NCBI RefSeq assembly: GCF_003337555.1
Contig: NZ_QPJK01000008.1
Span: 372,001-436,000 of the forward strand
Direction: 5' to 3'
Length of the DNA: 64,000 nucleotides
Source of the DNA: Pseudorhodoferax soli
GTDB lineage: Bacteria > Pseudomonadota > Gammaproteobacteria > Burkholderiales > Burkholderiaceae_C
Position numbers and translations under genes: made by a program. The first letter of the stretch is position 1. Every line of letters begins with the position of its first letter. Below are positions 23,376 through 34,588 of the stretch, one piece after another. The notes beneath the pieces are model-generated. The model saw only the letters and a program-made list of their open reading frames with translations, ran no database searches and was not told where the DNA came from.

Positions 23376-24062
23376 ATGGACATTCCCCGCTGGCGCGTCG
23401 TGCTGCTCGAGGACGACGCCGACATGCGCCGCTATTTCGAGGACTGCGTGCGCGCCGAGCCCACGCTGCTGCTGGCCGCATCGTTCGGCCTGCTGGCCCC
23501 CGCGCGCGCCTGGTTCGCCCAGCACCAGGCCGACGTGCTGCTGACCGACCTGGCGCTGCCCGACGGCCATGGCCTGGACCTGCTGGCCCAGGTGGTGCGC
23601 GAACAGCCGGCCTGCGACGTGCTGGTGGTCTCGGTCTTCGGCGACGAGGACACGGTGCTGGCCTGTGTGGAGGCCGGCGCCGTCGGCTACATCCAGAAGG
23701 ACGACACGCCGGCCAACGTGGCGCAGACCATCGTCGGCGTGAAGCAGGGGGCCTCGCCGATCTCGCCCATGATCGCGCGCAAGCTGCTGGCGCGGCTGCA
23801 GCAGCAGGGCGCGCGTGGCGCGGCGCCGCCCCTGCCGGCCGAGCCGCAGGTCGCGCTGACCCCGCGCGAGACCGAGGTGCTGGAACTCATCGCGCGCGGC
23901 TACTCCTACGCCGAGATCGCGCGGCTGCAGTCCGTCACCAAGCACACGGTGCAAAGCCACATCAAGAACCTGTACAGCAAGCTGGCCGTGCACTCGCGCG
24001 GCGAGGCCGTGTTCGAGGCCAGCCGCATGGGCCTGCTCGCGGGCGCGCGCGCAGCGCCGTGA
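23376..24062 (+). CDS. NarL/FixJ family response regulator
   Basis: 228 residues. Receiver domain with acidic pocket at Asp13-Asp14, phospho-acceptor Asp58 (VLLTDLALPDGHG) and Lys108 (VGYIQKDD); the C-terminal LuxR-type helix-turn-helix is LTPRETEVLELIARGYSYAE with VTKHTVQSHIKNLYSKL. It lies 11 bases after the TpsA gene and overlaps the histidine kinase start by 4 bases (GTGA), so the four genes 18323-25876 look like one operon. The probable job is to control the secretion genes or a related surface programme. Confidence 0.93.
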   Translation: MDIPRWRVVLLEDDADMRRYFEDCVRAEPTLLLAASFGLLAPARAWFAQHQADVLLTDLALPDGHGLDLLAQVVREQPACDVLVVSVFGDEDTVLACVEAGAVGYIQKDDTPANVAQTIVGVKQGASPISPMIARKLLARLQQQGARGAAPPLPAEPQVALTPRETEVLELIARGYSYAEIARLQSVTKHTVQSHIKNLYSKLAVHSRGEAVFEASRMGLLAGARAAP

Positions 24063-25876
24063 CGGCGCTGGCCCGGCTGCTGCTCTGGGCCTGGCTGCTG
24101 CTGGCCGCCTGGCCGGCCGCGGCCGCCGACGCCGTGCCGCCACCCCTCCCCGGCGTGCTGGAACTGCGCGAGGCCGAACTCAGCGTGCGCCTGCGTGGGC
24201 GGGCCGAGCCCATCATCTCGCAGACGCAGCTGCCGTTGCACTGGGACGTGGCCTACCGCCGCCAGGCCGGCTGGGCCCGCGTGCGGCTGGCCTTCGCGGG
24301 CGATGCGCTGCAGGCCGGCCAGCCGCTGGCGCTGTACATCGGCCGCGTCGGCAACGCCTACCGCGTCTCGCTCAACGGCGTGCTGCTGGCCGAGCATGGA
24401 GAGATGCGCCAGCCCAACCATGGCTGGATCGGCAAGCGCCCGCTGTGGCTGCGCGTGCCGGGCCCGCTACTGCAGCCCCACAACGAACTCGTGATCGAGA
24501 TCCGTGCCGACATCCTGCGCCGGGCCGGCGTGTCCGAGGTGCGCCTGGGGCCCGAGGCCGCGCTGCGCGACGCCTGGCATGCCAGCGAGTGGCGCCATGT
24601 GACCTTGCCGCGCGCGGCCTCCATCTTCGGCCTGCTGGTGGCGGTGTTCTGCATGCTGCTGTGGTGGCAGCAGCGCGAGGCGCTGTACGCCCTGGCTGCG
24701 GCCTGGCAGGCGGCCTGGTGCCTGCGCGTGACGGCACGCTGGTGGGAGGACGCCTTCCTCGCGTGGCCCGAGTGGTTCCGGCTCACGCAGGCGCTGTTCT
24801 GGCTGGGCTGCGTGGCCGGCTACGCCCTGGTGCGCGCGGTCTGGAAAGGCCGGCCGCGGCGCGAGCAGTGGCTGGCTGCCGGCGTGCTGGTGGCCTGGCT
24901 GGCCGCGATGTGGCTGGGGCCGGATGCGGTGCTGGCCTGCACCGTGGCCCTGCTTGCGGCCTGGGCCTGGCTGCTGGTGCGGCTGCTCCGGGAGACCTGG
25001 CGGGCGCCGAGCGGCGAGCGTGTCTGGATGAGCGCGGCGGCCGTGGTCTGCTGGGTGGCGCTGGTGGTCGACATCGCCACCGCGCGGCTGCTGCCGGCGC
25101 GCTACGACGAGGGCGGCCTCACGGTCTGGGCGGCGGGGCTTTCGGGCCTGGCGGTGCTGGTCATCGTGAGCCTGCGTTTCCAGCAGACGCGCCAGCAGCT
25201 GCTGGCGCTGACGCACTCGCTGGAAGACCGGGTGGCGTTGCGCGAGTCCGAGCTGGCCGCGCGCCACGAGGAGCTGCGCCGGCTCGAACGCGCCAGCGTC
25301 AAGGCCGAGGAGCGCACGCGCATCCTGCGCGACATGCACGACGGCGCGGGCGCCCACCTGATCACCGCCATGCGCCAGCTCGAAGGCGGCGTGGCCTCCA
25401 GGGGCGACGTGCTGCAGACGCTGCGCGAATCGCTGGACCAGCTGCGCCTGTCGGTCGATGCGCTGTCGCTGCCGCTGGGCGACATCAACGCGCTGCTGGC
25501 CAGCCTGCGCTACCGGCTGGCGCCGCGGCTGGAGGCGGCCGGCATCGCGCTGGACTGGGAGGTCGACCTGCTGCCGCTGTGGCCGGGCTGCACCGAGGAG
25601 GCCTTGCACCACCTGCAGTACATCCTGTTCGAGGCGATCTCCAATGCGCTGCAGCATGCCCAGGCCACGCGCATGGGCCTGCGCGCGCAGGTGCAAGGGA
25701 AGGGGCAGGACCAGGCCATCGTGCTGGAGCTGCGCGACAACGGCGTGGGCATCCGCGGAGGCAGCGGCAATGGCCTGCGCACCATGCGCGAGCGCGCGGC
25801 GCTGGCGGGCGTGCTGCTGGAACTGCAGGGCGGGGTCGGCGGCAGCAGCGTGCATATCCGCTTGCCGCTGGCCTGA
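24059..25876 (+). CDS. membrane sensor histidine kinase (HisKA_3 type)
   Basis: 605 residues from a GTG start. Signal peptide (to about residue 23), a periplasmic beta-sandwich-like sensor (residues about 35-175, with LYIGRVGNAYRVSLNG), then about seven membrane helices between 185 and 380, a short coiled coil, and a NarX/DesK-like dimerisation helix with the phospho-acceptor His427 (RILRDMHDGAGAHL). The ATP-binding domain has FEAISNALQHAQAT (N box) and LRDNGVGIRGGSGNGL (G1 box). This is the 7TMR-DISM-like layout. Partner of the preceding response regulator. Confidence 0.92.
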   Translation: MTALARLLLWAWLLLAAWPAAAADAVPPPLPGVLELREAELSVRLRGRAEPIISQTQLPLHWDVAYRRQAGWARVRLAFAGDALQAGQPLALYIGRVGNAYRVSLNGVLLAEHGEMRQPNHGWIGKRPLWLRVPGPLLQPHNELVIEIRADILRRAGVSEVRLGPEAALRDAWHASEWRHVTLPRAASIFGLLVAVFCMLLWWQQREALYALAAAWQAAWCLRVTARWWEDAFLAWPEWFRLTQALFWLGCVAGYALVRAVWKGRPRREQWLAAGVLVAWLAAMWLGPDAVLACTVALLAAWAWLLVRLLRETWRAPSGERVWMSAAAVVCWVALVVDIATARLLPARYDEGGLTVWAAGLSGLAVLVIVSLRFQQTRQQLLALTHSLEDRVALRESELAARHEELRRLERASVKAEERTRILRDMHDGAGAHLITAMRQLEGGVASRGDVLQTLRESLDQLRLSVDALSLPLGDINALLASLRYRLAPRLEAAGIALDWEVDLLPLWPGCTEEALHHLQYILFEAISNALQHAQATRMGLRAQVQGKGQDQAIVLELRDNGVGIRGGSGNGLRTMRERAALAGVLLELQGGVGGSSVHIRLPLA

Positions 25877-25881
25877 AGGCC

Positions 25882-25919
25882 TGCACCACAACCGGTCGCC
25901 ACGCCCCGGCACGGTGCCG
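25882..25919 (+). promoter_or_regulatory. candidate NtrC enhancer sites
   Basis: TGCACCA (25882-25888) equals the left half of the NtrC consensus, with a degenerate right half (CGGTCGC) after four bases. A second palindrome, GGCACGGTGCC (25909-25919), has the GCAC/GTGC core. They lie 64-100 bases upstream of a sigma-54-like promoter, the right place for an enhancer. Only the half-site and palindrome are seen directly; NtrC binding is inferred. Confidence 0.35.
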
Positions 25920-25982
25920 CAACGCAGCAGCGCGGGCGCCGTGCTGCCAGGAAAATCAAGCACTTGCCTTTGCCAGGCCCAC

Positions 25983-25998
25983 TGGCACAGAACCTGCT
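25983..25998 (+). promoter_or_regulatory. candidate sigma-54 (-24/-12) promoter of the guanidine operon
   Basis: TGGCACAGAACCTGCT keeps the invariant GG (25984-25985), a 10-base spacer and GC (25996-25997), and matches TGGCAC-n5-TTGC except for one base. Transcription would start near 26009, placing the guanidine-I riboswitch in the 5' leader. Sigma-54 control fits a nitrogen-scavenging operon. Confidence 0.5.
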
Positions 25999-26042
25999 GA
26001 GCACTGTGCGGGAGCAGCAGCAGTGCTGTGGATCCACAAATA

Positions 26043-26140
26043 GCTGGCTAGGGTTCCGGTCCGTCGCAAGACGGATGTCTGGTCCGAGAGCTGGCGACCT
26101 CTGGTTGAGGTTACACGGCGGGACAAAAGCCCGGGAGAGC
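26043..26140 (+). ncRNA. guanidine-I riboswitch (ykkC class)
   Basis: The conserved ykkC elements occur in order: CTAGGGTTCCGGTC (26048-26061), a variable hairpin CCGTCGCAAGACGG (26061-26074), TGGTCCGAGAGC (26080-26091), a hairpin arm pair ACCTC/GAGGT (26097-26112), then ACACGGCGGGACAAAAGCCC (26113-26132) and GGGAGA. The last block is the signature of the class. It binds guanidinium and turns on downstream genes. It ends about 62 bases before the binding-protein ATG; GCTGG/CCAGC (26153-26168) followed by a pyrimidine run may be part of the expression platform. Confidence 0.93.
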
Positions 26141-26201
26141 GGCGCCATCGGCGCTGGCTGCTCCCAGCTGCCTGTCCTCTTTCAACCGGAGTGTTCCCGC
26201 C

Positions 26202-27257
26202 ATGCATCCGCGCCGTCTACTGGGTGTCTTCACCCTCTGCCTTGCCGCCCTGTGGGGCGCCAGCGCCCACGCAGCCCCCAAGACCAGCTTCAACATCTGC
26301 TGGACCATCTACGCCGGCTGGATGCCGTGGGACTACGCCCAGGCCAGGGGCATCGTCGCCAAGTGGGCGAAGAAGTACGGCATCGCCATCCAGGTGACGC
26401 AGCTCAACGACTACGTCGAGTCGCTGAACCAGTACACGGCCGGCCAGTTCGACGGCTGCACCATGACCAACATGGACGCGCTCACCGTGCCGGCCGCTGG
26501 CGGCGTGGACAGCACCGCGCTGATCGCGGGCAGCTACTCCAACGGCAACGACGGCATCGTGCTCAAGGGTGCGGGCAAGACGCTGAAGGACCTCAAGGGC
26601 CAGAACGTGCACCTGGTGCAGTTCTCGGTCTCGCACTACCTGCTGGCACGCGGCCTGGATGCCGCCGGCCTGCGCGAGCGCGATCTCAAGGTGGTCAACA
26701 CCTCGGATGCCGACATCGCCGGCGCCTTCGCCACGCCCAAGGTGCAGGCCGTCGTGACCTGGAACCCGCAGCTGGCCACCGTGGCCGCCACGCCCGGCGC
26801 CACCAAGGTGTTCGACTCCAGCCAGGTGCCGGGCGAGATCATCGACCTGCTGGTGGTCAACACCGCCACGCTCAAGGACAACCCGGCCCTGGGCAAGGCG
26901 CTGACCGGCGCCTGGTACGAGGTCATGGCCACCATGCAGGCCAGGGACAGCGCCGCGCTGACGCAGATGGCCAAGGCCTCGGGCACCACGCTGGCGAACT
27001 ACCAGGCCCAGCTGGCCACCACCGCCATGCTCTACACGCCGGCCGAGGCACTGGCCTTCGTGACCAGCCCCAAGCTGCCCGAGACCATGAAGAAGGTGGC
27101 GCAGTTCTCGTTCGACAAGGGCCTCTTGGGCCAGGGCGCGCGCAGTGCCGACGCGATCGGCGTGGGCTTTCCGGGCAGCGCGAACGGCAACGCCAAGAAC
27201 ACCAAGCTGCGCTTCGACGCGAGCTACCTGCAGCTGGCCGTCGACGGCAAGCTCTGA
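26202..27257 (+). CDS. ABC transporter substrate-binding protein of the guanidine/urea carboxylase operon
   Basis: 351 residues with a cleavable signal peptide (to about residue 24, ending SAHA). NitT/TauT-type binding protein: FNICWTIYAGWMPWDYAQARGI, QYTAGQFDGCTMTNMDAL, VVTWNPQLATV. This subfamily travels with urea carboxylase genes and was annotated as a urea importer; behind a guanidine riboswitch, guanidinium or a guanidino compound is the better guess. First gene of an importer with the following permease and ATPase. Confidence 0.9.
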   Translation: MHPRRLLGVFTLCLAALWGASAHAAPKTSFNICWTIYAGWMPWDYAQARGIVAKWAKKYGIAIQVTQLNDYVESLNQYTAGQFDGCTMTNMDALTVPAAGGVDSTALIAGSYSNGNDGIVLKGAGKTLKDLKGQNVHLVQFSVSHYLLARGLDAAGLRERDLKVVNTSDADIAGAFATPKVQAVVTWNPQLATVAATPGATKVFDSSQVPGEIIDLLVVNTATLKDNPALGKALTGAWYEVMATMQARDSAALTQMAKASGTTLANYQAQLATTAMLYTPAEALAFVTSPKLPETMKKVAQFSFDKGLLGQGARSADAIGVGFPGSANGNAKNTKLRFDASYLQLAVDGKL

Positions 27258-27276: not shown

Positions 27277-28092
27277 ATGCGTTTCATCAACCGCCACCCC
27301 GGCCTGGGCGGGCGCTGGCTGCTCGCGCTGCTGCCGCTGGTCCTGCTGCTGCTGGCTTATGGCGTCGGCTCGGCCATGCGCCTGGCCGACAACCCCGACG
27401 ACAAGCTGCTGCCCGGCGCCACGCAGATGCTGGACGCCATCGCGCAGCTGGCGTTCAGCGAAGACCCGCGCACCGGCGAGGTGCTGCTGTGGTCCGACAC
27501 CGCCGCGAGCCTGACGCGCCTGCTGCTGGGCATCGCGATCTCGGCGCTCGTGGGCCTGTGCCTGGGCATCGCGGCCGGCGTGTTCCCGCTGCTGGGCGCC
27601 TCGCTGTCGCCGTTCCTCGCCGTGCTGTCCATGGTGCCGCCGCTGGCCATCCTGCCGATCCTGTTCATCGTGTTCGGGCTGGACGAGCTGTCCAAGGTCA
27701 TGCTGATCGTGATCGGCATCACGCCGGTGCTGGCGCGCGACCTGGAGCAGCGTTCGCGCGAGATCCCGCCCGAGCTGTTCGTCAAGGCGCAGACGCTGGG
27801 CGCCAACAGCTGGACGCTGGTGCTGCGCGTGGTGTTGCCGCAGCTGCTGTCGCGCCTGTTGCTGTCGCTGCGGCTGATGCTGGGCGCGGCCTGGCTGTTC
27901 CTGATCTCGGCCGAGGCGATCTCGGCCACGGCCGGCCTGGGCTACCGCATCTTCCTGGTGCGGCGCTACATGGCCATGGACGTGATCCTGCCCTACGTGG
28001 CGTGGATCACGCTCTTGGCCTGGGCCATGGACTGGGGGCTGCGCTGGCTGAACCGGCGCTGCTTCCCGTGGTCGGAAGGGGGTGTGAAATGA
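27277..28092 (+). CDS. ABC transporter permease (NitT/TauT family), guanidine operon
   Basis: 271 residues, about six membrane helices. The cytoplasmic EAA-type loop that contacts the ATPase is present (ELFVKAQTLGANSWTLVLRVVLPQLL). PPLAILPILFIVFGLDELSKVMLI is typical of nitrate/taurine-type permeases. Its TGA overlaps the ATG of the ATPase gene (ATGA), showing coupled translation. Forms the membrane channel of the importer. Confidence 0.93.
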   Translation: MRFINRHPGLGGRWLLALLPLVLLLLAYGVGSAMRLADNPDDKLLPGATQMLDAIAQLAFSEDPRTGEVLLWSDTAASLTRLLLGIAISALVGLCLGIAAGVFPLLGASLSPFLAVLSMVPPLAILPILFIVFGLDELSKVMLIVIGITPVLARDLEQRSREIPPELFVKAQTLGANSWTLVLRVVLPQLLSRLLLSLRLMLGAAWLFLISAEAISATAGLGYRIFLVRRYMAMDVILPYVAWITLLAWAMDWGLRWLNRRCFPWSEGGVK

Positions 28093-28940
28093 GCACCGCC
28101 GGGCCCCCCCAAGGTGATCGGCACCGCAGCCCGCAGGGCGAAGGTTCCACAGCCCGCTACATCGACGCACGCCATGTGTGGCAGCGCTACGGCGATCACG
28201 TGGTGCTGGAGAACCTGAACCTGGCGGTGCAGGAGGGCGAGTTCTGCACGCTGGTCGGCGCCTCGGGCTGCGGCAAGTCCACCTTCCTGCGGCTGCTGCT
28301 GGGCCAGGAGACGCCGAGCAAGGGCCAGCTGCTGCTGCAGGGCCAGCCGCTGGCGGCCGAGCCCGACGCGAGCCGCGGCGTGGTGTTCCAGCGCTATTCG
28401 GTGTTCCCGCACCTGTCGGTGCTGGACAACGTGGCCATCGGCCTGGAACTGCCGGCCGCGCCGCTGTGGGGCCGGCTGTTCGGCGCTCGCAAGCGTGTGG
28501 CACGCGAGGCCGCCGCGCAGATGCTGGAACGCGTGGGCCTGGGCCATGCGCTCGGCAAGTACCCGAGCCAGCTGTCGGGCGGCATGCAGCAGCGCCTGGC
28601 CATCGCGCAGGCGCTGATCGTGCGGCCGCGCGTGCTGCTGCTGGACGAGCCCTTCGGTGCGCTCGATCCCGGCATCCGCAAGGACATGCACGTGCTGCTG
28701 CTGGAGCTGTGGCGCGAGACGCGGCTCACCGTGTTCATGGTCACGCACGACCTGGCCGAAGGCTTCCACCTGGGCACGCGGCTGCTGGTCTTCGACAAGC
28801 TGCGCATCGACCCGCAGGCGCCGCAGGCCTATGGCGCGCGCATCACCTACGACATCCCGCTCAACCCGGAGCGCAGCGGCGGGGCCCTGGCGGCCCTGGC
28901 ACGCGTGACCGACACACCCATCCTGGAGACCCAAACATGA
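28089..28940 (+). CDS. ABC transporter ATP-binding protein (NitT/TauT family), guanidine operon
   Basis: 283 residues. Walker A GASGCGKST (about residues 57-65), Q-loop at VVFQRYSVFPHLSV, signature LSGGMQQRLAIAQAL, Walker B VLLLDEPFGALDP and switch histidine in VTHDLAEGF. An extra 25-residue polar N-terminus precedes the usual start of the fold. It overlaps the permease upstream and the CgdA gene downstream (ATGA both times), so the operon is tightly packed. Energises import. Confidence 0.95.
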   Translation: MSTAGPPQGDRHRSPQGEGSTARYIDARHVWQRYGDHVVLENLNLAVQEGEFCTLVGASGCGKSTFLRLLLGQETPSKGQLLLQGQPLAAEPDASRGVVFQRYSVFPHLSVLDNVAIGLELPAAPLWGRLFGARKRVAREAAAQMLERVGLGHALGKYPSQLSGGMQQRLAIAQALIVRPRVLLLDEPFGALDPGIRKDMHVLLLELWRETRLTVFMVTHDLAEGFHLGTRLLVFDKLRIDPQAPQAYGARITYDIPLNPERSGGALAALARVTDTPILETQT

Positions 28941-29647
28941 CCAGCCAGAACCTCTTCGAGGAAACCGTGCCCGGCGGCGGCCACACCTCGTTCATCCTGA
29001 AGCGCGGCCAGCAGCTGACGCTCACCGACCTCGAAGGCTGCGCCAACGTGAGCCTGATGCTGCTCAACGCCCACCAGCCCAGCGAGCGGCTGAACCTGCC
29101 CGACACGCTCAAGGGCCAGCACACGGCGCGGCTGACCGCGGGCCACTGCCTGGTCTCCGACATGGGCCGCGTGCTGGCCTGCATCACGGCCGACACCTGC
29201 GGCTGGCACGACCCTTTCGGCGGCGTGCTCAACGCCGACGAGGTGCGCGAGAAGTACGGCGCCGGCCGCTACCAGGAGCTGCGCAACGGCTTTTACCGCA
29301 ACGGCGTGGACAACCTGCTGGTGGAGATGGGCAAGTGGAACCTGGGCCTGCAGGACCTGCTGATGGTGCTGAACCTGTTCAGCAAGGTCACGGTCGACGG
29401 CGAAGGCGCCTTCCACTTCGCGGCCCATCACGCCAAGGCCGGCGACCAGATCACGCTCTACGCGCCGATGGACACGCTGGTCGTGCTGACGGCGCTGCAG
29501 CACCCGATGGACCCGGACCCGCGCTACGCGCCGCGGCCCGTGCAGCTGGAGGTCAGCCTGGCCGAGGGCGACGTGGCCGCCGCTTGCCGCACGTCGCGCC
29601 CCGAGAACGCGCGCGCCTTCCAGAACACCGAACGCTTCTACGCCTGA
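28937..29647 (+). CDS. cgdA: carboxyguanidine deiminase subunit A (urea carboxylase-associated, DUF1989)
   Basis: 236 residues of the DUF1989 family, long annotated as 'urea amidolyase associated protein 1'. In biochemically studied bacteria the two DUF1989 proteins form CgdAB, which hydrolyses carboxyguanidine (made from guanidine by the carboxylase) to allophanate and ammonia. Family blocks: [70 protein letters not shown]. Starts in an ATGA overlap with the ATPase stop. The guanidine riboswitch upstream supports the deiminase reading. Confidence 0.9.
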
Positions 29648-29660
29648 AGGAGACCCGCCC

Positions 29661-30299
29661 ATGCAGACCACCACCTCCAGCCCCCGGCACGCCGAGACCG
29701 CCGCGTTCCGCCACGTGATCCCGGCCGGCGAGCCCTACCTGTTCGACGTGAAGGCCGGCCAGACGCTGCGCCTGCTCGACCTCGAAGGCAACCAGGCCGT
29801 CGACACGCTCTTCTACAGCGCCGCCAACCCGCGCGAGCGCTACGACGCGCAGCGCACGCTGCGCCGCCAGGGCAAGGTCTACCTGACCACCGGCAGCGTG
29901 CTGTATTCCAACCTCGGCAACCCGCTGCTGACCATCGTGGCCGACACCTGCGGGCGCCACGACACGCTGGGCGGCGCCTGCGCGCAGGAGAGCAACACCG
30001 TGCGCTACGCGCTGGGCAAGCGCTACATGCACAGCTGCCGCGACAACTTCCTGTGTGCCTGCCTGCACGACGGCCGCCTGGGCAAGCGCGACATCGCGGC
30101 CAACATCAATTTCTTCATGAACGTGCCCGTCACGCCCGAGGGCGGGCTCACGTTCGAGGACGGCCTGTCCGCCCCCGGCAAGTACGTGGAATTGCTGGCC
30201 GCGATGGACGTGGTGGTGCTGATCTCCAACTGCCCGCAACTCAACAACCCCTGCAACGGCTGGAACCCCACGCCGGCGGAGGTGCTGGTATGGAACTGA
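29661..30299 (+). CDS. cgdB: carboxyguanidine deiminase subunit B (urea carboxylase-associated, DUF1989)
   Basis: 212 residues, second DUF1989 protein ('UAAP2'). Blocks parallel Cgd[81 protein letters not shown] and a terminal [15 protein letters not shown]. The Cys/His-rich segments probably hold the metal of the CgdAB heterodimer. Ribosome site AAGGAG precedes it. A strong internal ribosome site near its end may start a 23-residue peptide that overlaps the stop. Confidence 0.9.
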
Positions 30300-30366: not shown

Positions 30367-30400
30367 GAGGCTGAGCCTCCCGCCATGGACGGCCATGGCG
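30367..30400 (+). promoter_or_regulatory. two tandem hairpins between cgdB and the carboxylase gene
   Basis: GAGGC-TGA-GCCTC (30367-30379) is followed directly by CGCCATGG-ACGG-CCATGGCG (30381-30400), an 8-bp perfect stem with a 4-base loop. They lie in the only sizeable gap inside the operon, 47 bases before the carboxylase ATG. A role in RNA processing, protection or attenuation is inferred from structure. Confidence 0.45.
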
Positions 30401-30447
30401 CGACCCTTTCCATCGCGGGACGGCCCGCTGTTTGAAAGCCGTTCGAT

Positions 30448-33400
30448 ATGTTCGACAAACTCCTGATCGCCAACCGCGGCGCCATCGCCTGCCGCATCCT
30501 GCGCACACTGCGCGCCATGCAGGTCCACGGCGTCGCCGTCTACGCCGAGGCCGATGTGGCCAGCCAGCACGTGAGCCAGGCTGACGAGGCCCATAGCCTG
30601 GGCGAGGGCGCTGCCTCCAGCACCTACCTCGCGGTGGACAAGCTGCTGGCCGTCGCACGCGCCACGGGCGCGCAGGCCATCCACCCAGGCTACGGCTTCC
30701 TGTCCGAGAACGCGGCCTTCGCCGAGGCCTGCGCGGCGGCCGGCATCGCCTTCGTCGGCCCCACGCCCGAACAGCTGCGCGTGTTCGGCCGCAAGCACAC
30801 CGCGCGCGCATTGGCGCGTGCCCAGGGCCTGCCGCTGCTGGAAGGCACGGAACTGCTGGAGAACGTCGAAGCCGCGCTGGCGGCCGGCGAGCAGGTCGGC
30901 TATCCCGTCATGCTCAAGAGCACGGCCGGCGGCGGAGGCATCGGCATGCGTGTCTGCCGTTCGGCCGGTGAACTCACACAAGCCTTCGAGACCGTGCGCC
31001 GCCTGGGCCAGAACAACTTCAGCGACGCTGGCGTGTTCATGGAGAAGTACATCGAACGTGCGCGCCACCTCGAGGTGCAGGTCTTCGGTGACGGGCGCGG
31101 CGACGTGCTGGCCCTGGGCGTGCGCGACTGCTCGGTGCAGCGGCGCAACCAGAAGGTGCTGGAAGAGACGCCAGCGCCAAACCTGCCCGAGGGCATGGCC
31201 GACGCCCTGTGCGCTGCTGCCGTGCAACTCGCCAAAGCCGTGCAGTACCGCAGCGCGGGTACGGTGGAGTTCGTCTACGACAGCGACGCTGGCCGCTTCT
31301 ACTTCCTCGAAGTCAACACGCGCCTGCAGGTCGAGCACGGCGTGACCGAGCAGGTCTGGGGCGTGGACCTGGTGCGCTGGATGGTAGAGCTCGCAGCCGA
31401 CACGCTCGCGCCGCTGGCCGAACTCGCGCAGGCGCTCAAGCCGCAGGGCCACGCGATCCAGGCCCGGCTCTACGCCGAGGACACCGGCCGCGACTTCCAG
31501 CCCAGCCCGGGCCTCTTGACCGAGGTGCAATTTCCGCCAGCCGATGGCCGCGCGCTGCGCATCGACACCTGGGTCGAGGCCGGCTGCGAGATCCCGCCCT
31601 TCTTCGACCCTATGGTGGCCAAGCTGATCGCCTGGGCGCCTGACCGCGAGCAGGCGCGCGCTGGACTCGACCGCGCGCTGGCCGACACGCGCCTGTACGG
31701 CGTGGAGACCAACCGCGGCTACCTGCGCCAGATCCTTGCCGATGCGCCCTTCGCCAGCGGCCAGCCCTGGACGCGCTGCCTCGAAGGACTGCTCGTGCGC
31801 GACCACGGCTTCGACGTGCTGTCCGCCGGCACGCAGACCACCGTGCAGGACTGGCCCGGCCGCCTGGGCTACTGGGCGGTGGGCGTGCCGCCGTCCGGCC
31901 CCATGGACGACCGCGCGCTGCGCCTGGCCAACCGCCTGCTCGGCAACCCCGAGGGCGCGGCCGGCCTGGAGATCACCATGGCCGGCCCGCGCCTGCGCTT
32001 TCGCTGCGACGCGGTGGTGGCCGTGACAGGCGCGCCGCTGCCCGTGCTGCTCGATGGTGTGCCCCAGCCCATGGACCGAACGCTGTTCGTGCCGGCCGGC
32101 AGCACCCTGGCGCTGGGCCAGGTGGCCGAACGCGGCGCGCGCAGCTATCTCACGCTGCGCGGCGGCCTGCAACTGCCCGGTTACCTGGGCAGCCTGAGCA
32201 CCTTCACGCTGGGCCAGTTCGGCGGCCACGCCGGCCGGGCGCTGCGCGCGGGCGACGTGCTGCACCTGCTGCCGCTGGTCGACGCTTCGACCGGCGCCGC
32301 GCTGCCGGCCGCGCTGGTACCGCCGCTTGCGGCCGTGCGCGAACTGCGCGTGGTCTACGGCCCGCACGGCGCGCCCGAGTACTTCACGCCCGCGTCCATT
32401 GCGAGCTTCTTCGCCACGGCCTGGGAGGTGCACTTCAACTCCAGCCGCACGGGCGTGCGCCTGATCGGCCCCAAACCGGAGTGGGCGCGCGCGACCGGCG
32501 GGGAGGCCGGCCTGCACCCGTCCAACATCCACGACAACCCCTATGCCGTGGGCGCGGTCGACTTCACGGGCGACATGCCTGTGGTCCTGGGGCCGGACGG
32601 TCCCAGCCTGGGCGGCTTCGTCTGTCCCGTGACCGTCATCGAGGCCGACCTGTGGCAGCTGGGCCAACTCAAGGCCGGAGACCGCCTGCGCTTCGTGCCG
32701 GTGGACATCGCCACCGCACGCCGGCTCGCCGATGCGCGCGCACAGGAGGTGGCGGCGCTCGCGCCGGTGGCCGTGGACTGGGCGCCGGCGCCGTTGGCCT
32801 CGCCTGTGGTGCTCGACCTCGGCGAAGCCGACCGTCGCCTCGTCGCGCGCCTGTCCGGCGACACGCACCTGCTGCTGGAGATCGGCGCGGCCGAACTCGA
32901 CCTGGTGCTGCGCTTGCGTGCCCACGCGCTGATGCAGGCCTTGCAGGACCAGGCGCTGGCCGGCGTGGTCGACCTCACGCCCGGCATCCGCTCGCTGCAG
33001 GTGCACTACCGGCCGCAGGCGCTGCCGCTGGCGCGGCTGCTGCAGGTGATCGCCGGCCTGTGGGACGGGGTGTGCGCCGCGCGCGACCTGGCCGTGCCCT
33101 CGCGCACCGTGCATCTGCCGCTGTCCTGGGACGACCCGGCCTGCCAGCTGGCGATCCAGAAGTACATGACGACCGTGCGCAAGGACGCGCCCTGGTGCCC
33201 CAGCAACCTGGAGTTCATCCGCCGCATCAACGATCTTCCTGACCTGGACGCCGTGCAGCGCACCGTGTTCGAGGCGCGCTACCTCGTCATGGGCCTGGGC
33301 GACGTCTACCTGGGCGCGCCCGTGGCCACGCCGCTGGACCCGCGCCACCGGCTCGTGACCACCAAGTACAACCCGGCGCGCACCTGGACGGCCGAGAACT

Positions 33401-34047
33401 CGGTCGGCATCGGCGGCGCCTATCTGTGCGTCTACGGCATGGAGGGCCCGGGCGGCTACCAGTTCGTCGGCCGCACGCTGCAGATGTGGAACCGCTGGCG
33501 CCACGTCGAGGCCTTCGGCGGCAAGCCCTGGCTGCTGCGCTTCTTCGACCAGATCCGTTTCGAGCCCGTGAGCGCGGAGGAACTGCAGCGCATCCGGCGC
33601 GACTTCCCGCTGGGCCGCTACCCGCTGCGCATCGAGGAAGGCGAGCTGCGGCTCGCCGACTACCAGATTTTCCTGGCGCGCGAGGCCGAGGGCATCGCAG
33701 CCTTCCGCGCGCAGCAGCAGGCCGCCTTCGCGGCCGAGCGCGCGCGCTGGATCGCCAACGGCCAGGCCGAATTCTCGAGCGAGGAGGCCGCGCCCGACCT
33801 GGGCGAGGAGCCGCCGCTGGCACCAGGCCAGCACGCGGTGGACAGCCACATCGCGGGCAACCTGTGGCAGGTGCGCGTGCAGGTCGGGCAGACCGTGGAG
33901 GAGGGCGAGGAACTCGTGGTGCTCGAGTCCATGAAGATGGAGATCGGTCTGGCCGCGCCGCAGCGCGGCATCGTGCGCGAGGTGCGCGTGCAGCCTGGCT
34001 CGCCGGTGCGGGCCGGCCAGAGGGTGGTGGTGATCGAGGTGGCCTGA
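30448..34047 (+). CDS. urea carboxylase family enzyme, probable guanidine carboxylase
   Basis: 1199 residues. Biotin carboxylase domain (1-450: MFDKLLIANRGAIACRI, HPGYGFLSENAAFA, KSTAGGGGIGMRV, EVNTRLQVEHGVTEQ), then a carboxyltransferase region (about 465-1080) including PPSGPMDDRALRLANRLLGNP and the urea carboxylase hallmark YGMEGPGGYQFVGRTLQMWN, and a C-terminal biotin carrier domain with Lys1163 in ESMKMEIG. It carboxylates guanidine (or urea) using ATP and bicarbonate. The riboswitch and CgdAB favour guanidine. Allophanate hydrolase, usually fused or adjacent, is absent from this locus. Confidence 0.95.
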   Translation: MFDKLLIANRGAIACRILRTLRAMQVHGVAVYAEADVASQHVSQADEAHSLGEGAASSTYLAVDKLLAVARATGAQAIHPGYGFLSENAAFAEACAAAGIAFVGPTPEQLRVFGRKHTARALARAQGLPLLEGTELLENVEAALAAGEQVGYPVMLKSTAGGGGIGMRVCRSAGELTQAFETVRRLGQNNFSDAGVFMEKYIERARHLEVQVFGDGRGDVLALGVRDCSVQRRNQKVLEETPAPNLPEGMADALCAAAVQLAKAVQYRSAGTVEFVYDSDAGRFYFLEVNTRLQVEHGVTEQVWGVDLVRWMVELAADTLAPLAELAQALKPQGHAIQARLYAEDTGRDFQPSPGLLTEVQFPPADGRALRIDTWVEAGCEIPPFFDPMVAKLIAWAPDREQARAGLDRALADTRLYGVETNRGYLRQILADAPFASGQPWTRCLEGLLVRDHGFDVLSAGTQTTVQDWPGRLGYWAVGVPPSGPMDDRALRLANRLLGNPEGAAGLEITMAGPRLRFRCDAVVAVTGAPLPVLLDGVPQPMDRTLFVPAGSTLALGQVAERGARSYLTLRGGLQLPGYLGSLSTFTLGQFGGHAGRALRAGDVLHLLPLVDASTGAALPAALVPPLAAVRELRVVYGPHGAPEYFTPASIASFFATAWEVHFNSSRTGVRLIGPKPEWARATGGEAGLHPSNIHDNPYAVGAVDFTGDMPVVLGPDGPSLGGFVCPVTVIEADLWQLGQLKAGDRLRFVPVDIATARRLADARAQEVAALAPVAVDWAPAPLASPVVLDLGEADRRLVARLSGDTHLLLEIGAAELDLVLRLRAHALMQALQDQALAGVVDLTPGIRSLQVHYRPQALPLARLLQVIAGLWDGVCAARDLAVPSRTVHLPLSWDDPACQLAIQKYMTTVRKDAPWCPSNLEFIRRINDLPDLDAVQRTVFEARYLVMGLGDVYLGAPVATPLDPRHRLVTTKYNPARTWTAENSVGIGGAYLCVYGMEGPGGYQFVGRTLQMWNRWRHVEAFGGKPWLLRFFDQIRFEPVSAEELQRIRRDFPLGRYPLRIEEGELRLADYQIFLAREAEGIAAFRAQQQAAFAAERARWIANGQAEFSSEEAAPDLGEEPPLAPGQHAVDSHIAGNLWQVRVQVGQTVEEGEELVVLESMKMEIGLAAPQRGIVREVRVQPGSPVRAGQRVVVIEVA

Positions 34048-34075: not shown

Positions 34076-34519
34076 TCAACGCAGCACCAGCACCGGGATG
34101 TGCGAGTGCGTCAGCACATGCTGGGTCTCGCTGCCCAGCAACAACCGGCTCACGCCGCGGCGACCGTGCGAGGCCATCACGATCAGGTCGCAGTGGTGCT
34201 TCTGCGCGGTGGCGATCAGGGCCTCGGAGACCTGGTCGCCGCGCACCACCACGGGCGTCACGGTGACCTTCCTGGACAGGCCGGCGGACTGCACGGACTC
34301 CAGTTCCTGGAGCGCGGCCGCGCTCCAGTTGGCCTCGGTGCGCTCGATCTCCTTGATGTCGATGGCCATCGCGCCGTCGAAGTAGCTCTGCGGATAGGGC
34401 GGCACCACCTTCACGGCGACCAGGGACGCGCCGAGCTTGCCGGCCAGGTCGAGCGCACTGTCGACGGCCTTTTGCGACAACTCCGAACCATCGGTGGCAA
34501 CCAGGATGCGTTGGTACAT
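34076..34519 (-). CDS. universal stress protein (UspA family)
   Basis: 147 residues, single Usp domain. MYQRILVATDGSELSQKAVD at the start and the ATP-binding G-x2-G-x9-G-S motif in SHGRRGVSRLLLGSETQHVL, so probably the ATP-binding class. AAAGGAGA precedes the ATG. Between it and the Cu+ ATPase gene lies an FNR-like box, so oxygen limitation probably induces it, as for Usp genes in other FNR/ANR regulons. Confidence 0.92.
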   Translation of the reverse strand: MYQRILVATDGSELSQKAVDSALDLAGKLGASLVAVKVVPPYPQSYFDGAMAIDIKEIERTEANWSAAALQELESVQSAGLSRKVTVTPVVVRGDQVSEALIATAQKHHCDLIVMASHGRRGVSRLLLGSETQHVLTHSHIPVLVLR

Positions 34520-34574
34520 GGTGTTTCTCCTTTGAAGTGGTGTGTTCAGCATAGGCCGCCCCTGCCGGAATGGG

Positions 34575-34588
34575 TTGATGTACGTCAA
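34575..34588. promoter_or_regulatory. FNR/ANR-like box, usp/ccoI divergent promoter
   Basis: TTGATGTACGTCAA matches TTGAT-n4-ATCAA in nine of ten fixed positions. It is centred about 62 bases before the usp start and 42 before the ccoI start. An FNR gene lies 9 kb away in the same cluster. Confidence 0.65.

Follow-up and report, generated by a model that had tools for sequence, protein, structure and literature searches.

Analysis of a 64,000-nucleotide stretch of Pseudorhodoferax soli DNA (contig NZ_QPJK01000008.1, positions 372,001 to 436,000 of the forward strand, hereafter the window) suggested, with a probability that we put at about 0.85, that its guanidine operon is controlled by a series gate, in which an NtrC-dependent sigma-54 promoter is followed by a Guanidine-I riboswitch and then by a Guanidine-II riboswitch in front of the carboxylase gene. 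Both riboswitches, a conserved sigma-54 box, the enrichment of NtrC dyads and the co-occurrence of the box with NtrC were observed directly.

The leader of the operon carries a full-length Guanidine-I (ykkC) aptamer on the forward strand at 26037-26139, which matched the Rfam model RF00442 with 92 bits against a gathering score of 63 and with no non-standard pairs marked, thus bearing out the clear ykkC riboswitch claimed for this leader by a preliminary description of the same DNA. The Rfam scan of the window returned this one Guanidine-I aptamer and one Guanidine-II aptamer (RF01068, 44.2 bits against a gathering score of 32), the latter located within the operon on the same strand at 30381-30428, about 20 bases before the start of the carboxylase gene; neither this second riboswitch nor the better NtrC dyad (25903-25917, see below) appeared in the preliminary description. 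Guanidine binding and switching-on by the 26037-26139 aptamer are predicted from its sequence. A possible expression platform is a predicted hairpin GGGAG...CTCCC (26133-26165, forward strand), which shares the bases of its 5' arm in part with the 3' end of the aptamer. In L417 and L418, two Pantoea plasmids whose genes are ordered as in the window, a T-run comes after the hairpin (which ends in CTCC in L418) at the equivalent place, and the window has retained the complementary arms without a clear T-run. Guanidine would thus be expected to relieve transcription termination, with control by Rho or at the level of translation also possible in the window. Guanidine-II riboswitches were detected by cmscan in the operons of L032, L044, L049, L056, L417 and L418 and were not found in L197 and L218, nor in L216, whose stretch may end short of the place. 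When two GACGRC loops were sought with a loose pattern, 34 of the 46 gaps between cgdB and the carboxylase gene fitted, and Guanidine-II matches occurred in 10 of 143 genomes.

The genes that follow the leader on the forward strand encode the periplasmic substrate-binding protein of a presumed guanidine ABC importer (26202-27257; TIGR03427, 540.7 bits), an ABC permease (27277-28092; TauC/SsuC/NtrB-like, under the equivalog cut-offs), an ABC ATPase (28089-28940; many ABC ATPase models, all shown under their cut-offs), the CgdA-like and CgdB-like carboxyguanidine deiminase subunits (28937-29647, TIGR03425, 313.6 bits, model name UAAP1; and 29661-30299, TIGR03424, 330.2 bits, model name UAAP2) and a guanidine/urea carboxylase (30448-34047; TIGR02712, 1838 bits). 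Because of the riboswitches, the substrate of the carboxylase is probably guanidine rather than urea. Its Asp 705 (motif AVDFTGD) appears to lie near the position by which the available text of PMC11410670 discriminates guanidine from urea carboxylases. The next gene after the carboxylase, on the opposite strand at 34076-34588, encodes a universal stress protein (PF00582), and an allophanate hydrolase does not directly follow the carboxylase (34047 onward). CgdB in the window shares 86-87% identity with its counterpart on the large Pantoea plasmids L417 and L418. Since, in addition, none of the five further genomes of the genus carries a Guanidine-I riboswitch above cut-off, the operon may have been acquired by horizontal transfer.

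Upstream of the aptamer, the GG-n10-GC promoter, the perfect NtrC half-site and the more distant GCAC/GTGC palindrome of the preliminary description were all recovered. The sigma-54 box TGGCACAGAACCTGCT occupies 25983-25998 on the forward strand and agrees with TGGCACR-N4-TTGCW at 11 of 12 positions, the -24 GG (25984-85) and the -12 GC (25996-97) being separated by 10 bases and the GC sitting 41 bases before the aptamer. The half-site TGCACCA was read at 25882-25888 (forward strand) and the palindrome GGCACGGTGCC at 25908-25918, where it overlaps the best NtrC-type dyad, GCCCC-GGCAC-GGTGC (25903-25917, neither strand assigned), which scores 9/10 and is imperfect in having GCCCC in place of GCACC. 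Transcription from a sigma-54 promoter usually starts 12 bases past the GC of the -12 element. Given this distance and the place of the box GC, the transcript is predicted to start near 26008-26009, in agreement with the earlier estimate of about 26009, with a leader at 26009-26036 (forward strand) up to the aptamer and the dyad centred about 99 bases before the start. A sigma-70 start elsewhere, named beforehand as counter-evidence, was not supported, as a simple scan of 25500-26500 returned no sigma-70 promoter-like site. Shuffling of the window alone gave p = 0.007 for a box of at least 11 in 164 bases and, for a dyad of at least 9, p = 0.04 over 107 bases rising to 0.06 over 200 bases; by themselves these motifs are weak evidence, and it is the relatives that decide.

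As only two of the six genomes of the genus matched RF00442, and above cut-off only the one under study, conservation was tested across genera. The model was searched in the genus and also, with samples that partly overlap, in the family, order, class and phylum, giving matches in 45 of 399 (family), 51 of 399 (order), 29 of 369 (class) and 43 of 398 (phylum) genomes. Upstream DNA was read for 224 Guanidine-I loci in 157 genomes, and a box was scored where at least 10 of 12 positions agreed, GG and GC being obligatory, in the interval from -120 to +4 relative to the start of the aptamer. Left out of the usable set were six loci below the gathering score (L091, L223, L224, L253, L254 and L255) and two at contig ends with 80 and 61 bases upstream (L089 and L215), and a partial RF00442 match (G514:C60, 35.8 bits) was not among the loci counted. 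The box was present in 187 of the 224 loci, that is, in 187 of the 216 usable ones from 153 genomes of the phylum, a figure that rose to 192 of 216 with a threshold of at least 9. By level, it was found in the single locus of the genome under study (1/1), in 55 of 58 loci of the family, 63 of 76 of the order, 61 of 67 of the class and 7 of 14 in the rest of the phylum.

This conservation is far beyond chance. The same criterion returned 1.6% on shuffled sequences, 3 of 224 on the reverse strand, 3 of 219 in the interval 596-720 bases upstream, and 1 of 28 in front of TPP riboswitches of the same family as the window (30 loci, two of which were cut short and left out). The spacing proved strict, with TGGCAY-N5-YTGCW occurring in 107 of the 224 loci and each other spacer from 0 to 11 in 0-4 loci. 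An aptamer has to lie on the transcript, so its promoter must be upstream of it; of 144 sites scoring at least 11 within 600 bases on either side, 138 fell within 100 bases ahead of the aptamer, and the 600 bases past its start contained none. In boxes of at least 10, the GC stood 7 to 107 bases before the aptamer. At nine loci (L139, L140, L170, L172, L175, L244, L245, L247 and L250) the distance from the -12 GC was only 7-14 bases, so that the transcript would begin practically at the riboswitch; seven of these nine lie outside the class of the window, and named Rhizobiales behave alike.

In the close relatives L044, L056, L049 and L052, whose binding proteins share 74-82% identity with that of the window along the whole length, the GG-n10-GC arrangement is kept at a nearly constant place; its loss there had been named beforehand as an argument against the promoter. 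The -24 element is degraded in L049 and L052, leaving a box of 9/12 (GGGTATGGGTATTGCT), and among the complete relatives it is these two whose binding protein is most similar (81-82%). A box of at least 10 was missing in 29 of the 216 usable loci, 13 of them in genomes with NtrC, 14 in genomes lacking it and two in genomes not assessed for it. Among the 13 in NtrC-bearing genomes, L130 does carry a box of 11/12, placed at -149 and hence beyond the 120-base limit.

The six sub-gathering loci, which scored 42.6-58.4 bits and have no box, are probably not Guanidine-I riboswitches and were rejected as such. They precede related transporter genes (EamA in L224, the one scanned), and L091, L223, L224, L253 and L254, with L255 as the exception, have in common TCGA immediately ahead of the aptamer as well as GAGTG(G/A)CAACTAGGGTTCCG. 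The six may represent another ykkC-type class with a different ligand.

A pattern scan was also applied to named genomes, comprising at least 120 stretches with at least 125 riboswitches, two of them too near the stretch end; this set partly overlaps the locus set (L321 and L112 lie on one contig), and phyla were assigned from the titles. Among the matches listed, a box of at least 10 was found in 58 of 76 Pseudomonadota, with examples in Pseudomonas, Acinetobacter, Marinobacter, Paraburkholderia, Mesorhizobium, Devosia and Bradyrhizobium. Likewise among the matches listed, it was found in 0 of 28 Bacillota, 0 of 8 Actinomycetota, 0 of 1 Campylobacterota and 0 of 10 of the cyanobacterial group, one of the last being a Gastranaerophilales MAG.

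The DNA that precedes the 187 boxes was likewise searched for NtrC sites. The sigma-54 and NtrC consensus sequences are general background, and the NtrC half-site was recovered independently of them by a motif-free count, in which GCACCA/TGGTGC was the most over-represented 6-mer (180 occurrences against 33.5 expected). The dyad GCACC-N5-GGTGC was present with at least 9/10 in 83 of the 187 boxed loci, compared with 3-18 for other spacers from 0 to 13 and 3.6 in shuffles, and 71 of the 96 such dyads were centred 81-140 bases before the predicted start. The genome under study encodes NtrC (624 bits against a cut-off of 558.6) and gave two matches to the RpoN model PF04552. Its glnA gene (TIGR00653) is preceded by the box TGGCACGGAACCTGCA, which differs from that of the window at 2 of 16 bases, and also has a 9/10 NtrC dyad, GCACCAAATACGTGC.

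NtrC, scored as present where TIGR01818 matched above cut-off, was assessed in 115 of the 157 match-bearing genomes, 35 of them chosen to hold most of the exceptions and 80 others, and was found in 99 (21/35 and 78/80). The box occurred in 128 of 141 usable loci of genomes with NtrC and in 2 of 16 of those without, the latter two belonging to MAGs that are 78% and 79% complete. The corresponding Fisher value of 6e-11 ignores shared ancestry and, with few independent losses, overstates the strength of the association. Eleven of the 16 NtrC-less loci come from one family, f16 (L093, L103, L105, L109, L113, L119, L120, L147, L186, L190 and L197), and three more from the family f263, two of which lie in genomes devoid of RpoN (G1361 and G1448). 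Absence of rpoN may explain the missing box in these two genomes; as a general cause it was rejected, since 37 of 40 genomes examined have rpoN.

Because two permeases of f16 that were compared are 64-71% identical to those of named Nitrosomonas and named Nitrosospira loci, the family is taken to be Nitrosomonadaceae, that is, ammonia oxidisers. All ten f16 genomes keep rpoN, none has NtrC above cut-off, and none of the 11 loci has a box; among the matches listed, the three named Nitrosomonas/Nitrosospira loci had none either. Seven of the 11 f16 loci show a sigma-70-like TTGC-N18..20-TANNAT, an element seen in 0 of the 187 boxed loci and in 0.2 of 11 after shuffling. Ten f16 loci have an amino-acid-permease-type gene first, while L190 precedes a carboxylase gene and is divergent to L105.

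Expression data from Burkholderia cenocepacia bear directly on the NtrC layer. As reported in the available text of PMC5491218, RNA sequencing of a H111 ntrC mutant under nitrogen starvation showed I35_7283-7286 to be down, with a log2 change of -6.0 for the urea carboxylase BCAS0272 and zero reads for BCAS0269 (transporter, related transporter protein) and BCAS0271 (aminomethyltransferase); 95% of the top 150 genes were also under sigma-54. On a replicon of another strain (NZ_CP091014.1, L419) we found two Guanidine-I aptamers in divergent orientation, with 76.7 and 76.6 bits. Each is preceded by a box of 11/12, and the DNA separating the two holds a 9/10 NtrC dyad; the binding protein is encoded to one side, and CgdA, CgdB and the carboxylase to the other. 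The record is unannotated at this place, and by its gene content the locus is the apparent counterpart of BCAS0269-0272. In the available text of the H111 paper these genes are assigned to urea, and the words riboswitch and guanidine do not occur (PMC5491218). As the wild type expressed them in a medium whose description, in the same text, names no guanidine, the riboswitch gate may be leaky, or guanidine may have been present. The sigma-54/NtrC layer, which the preliminary description had proposed from short motifs, is thus supported by the box in the relatives, by the enriched dyads and by the published NtrC dependence of apparently matching genes.

Control by a sigma-54 promoter that answers to an enhancer-binding protein other than NtrC appears unlikely. 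In its favour, many NtrC-like proteins are encoded in the genomes examined, the genome under study alone giving 34 matches to the ntrC model with one above cut-off among the matches listed, and 104 of the 187 boxed loci lack a 9/10 dyad; however, the enriched dyad is built from the NtrC half-site with a strict N5 spacing, the box is absent in a family in which rpoN was present and NtrC did not score above cut-off, and the genes of B. cenocepacia have been reported, in the text available, to depend on NtrC itself (PMC5491218).

The neighbourhood of the operon offers a further candidate in a LuxR-type response regulator (23376-24062) and a sensor kinase (24059-25876), which adjoin the operon on the same, forward strand, the stop codon of the kinase falling just before 25882-26140, and which might act through a sigma-70 promoter. 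The pair gave no tblastn match (E up to 1e-8) in 60 loci of the family and genus, searched mostly over 2 kb upstream and 10 kb downstream and over less at contig ends, and the scan described above found no sigma-70-like site; moreover, LuxR-type regulators are not known to act as sigma-54 activators. Control by this pair was therefore rejected as very improbable. Least probable of all is that the box arose by chance and that an unseen promoter feeds a riboswitch acting alone: the p values for the window alone are modest enough to allow it, but the box is kept across the relatives, with the controls of position, spacing and strand.

Under the series gate that we favour, shortage of nitrogen would lead to phosphorylation of NtrC, which would act from sites about 100 bases upstream and open the sigma-54 promoter, whereas without phosphorylated NtrC the promoter would stay shut. 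The transcript would begin about 28 bases before the Guanidine-I aptamer, and guanidine bound to the aptamer would prevent the GGGAG...CTCCC hairpin and allow efficient read-through into the importer and catabolic genes. Guanidine-II would then tune the carboxylase close to the start of its gene. With nitrogen shortage and guanidine tested in series, the operon would behave as an AND gate, perhaps a leaky one, provided that the box and the dyad are active in Pseudorhodoferax soli, as their sequences suggest.

The two layers are each already known separately. Similar genes with Guanidine-I in front and Guanidine-II before the carboxylase, as in the window, are described in the available texts for Vreelandella boliviensis (PMC12508155), which has the extra genes mgdH, mgdL and atzF, and for Raoultella, Klebsiella and Erwinia (PMC12186494); unlike here, a sigma-54/NtrC layer is not described in those texts. 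In V. boliviensis the operon proteins rise on guanidine relative to ammonium, a comparison in which guanidine and nitrogen status changed together (PMC12508155). A survey of sigma-54 regulons predicted control of COG3665 genes, and its available text does not mention guanidine, has the word riboswitch once, in the reference list, and does not draw the coupling (PMC12316311). In nitrifiers, according to the text available, Guanidine-I precedes an APC permease in comammox bacteria, and one ammonia-oxidising bacterium, Nitrosospira multiformis, is shown as well (PMC11410670); the riboswitch class is that of the window, but the Nitrosomonadaceae-like loci in our data are without the sigma-54 box. 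Within the open-licence literature we found no paper linking sigma-54 or NtrC to guanidine riboswitches, and no experiment in which nitrogen supply and guanidine were changed separately.

Discussions of guanidine riboswitches usually treat the RNA as deciding alone. Here, as in most of the Guanidine-I loci examined in the phylum, the RNA looks like a second gate placed after the nitrogen response, and such an RNA switch behind an activator-dependent promoter constitutes a testable two-input circuit. The gate predicts that guanidine induction would be hidden in ammonium-rich cultures, and our results suggest that the genes labelled "urea" in the NtrC regulon of B. cenocepacia serve guanidine use instead. 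The box missing from the NtrC-less family amounts to a natural experiment. As to whether guanidine is food or poison, the nitrogen gate argues for food. We consider it fairly probable that across Pseudomonadota the Guanidine-I riboswitch normally supplies the second of two inputs, NtrC and sigma-54 providing the first, and that this nitrogen input has been discarded where guanidine is not a food for times of scarce nitrogen. If this holds, ammonia oxidisers able to burn guanidine as fuel would be an example, and promoter architecture would report the role of guanidine in each lineage.
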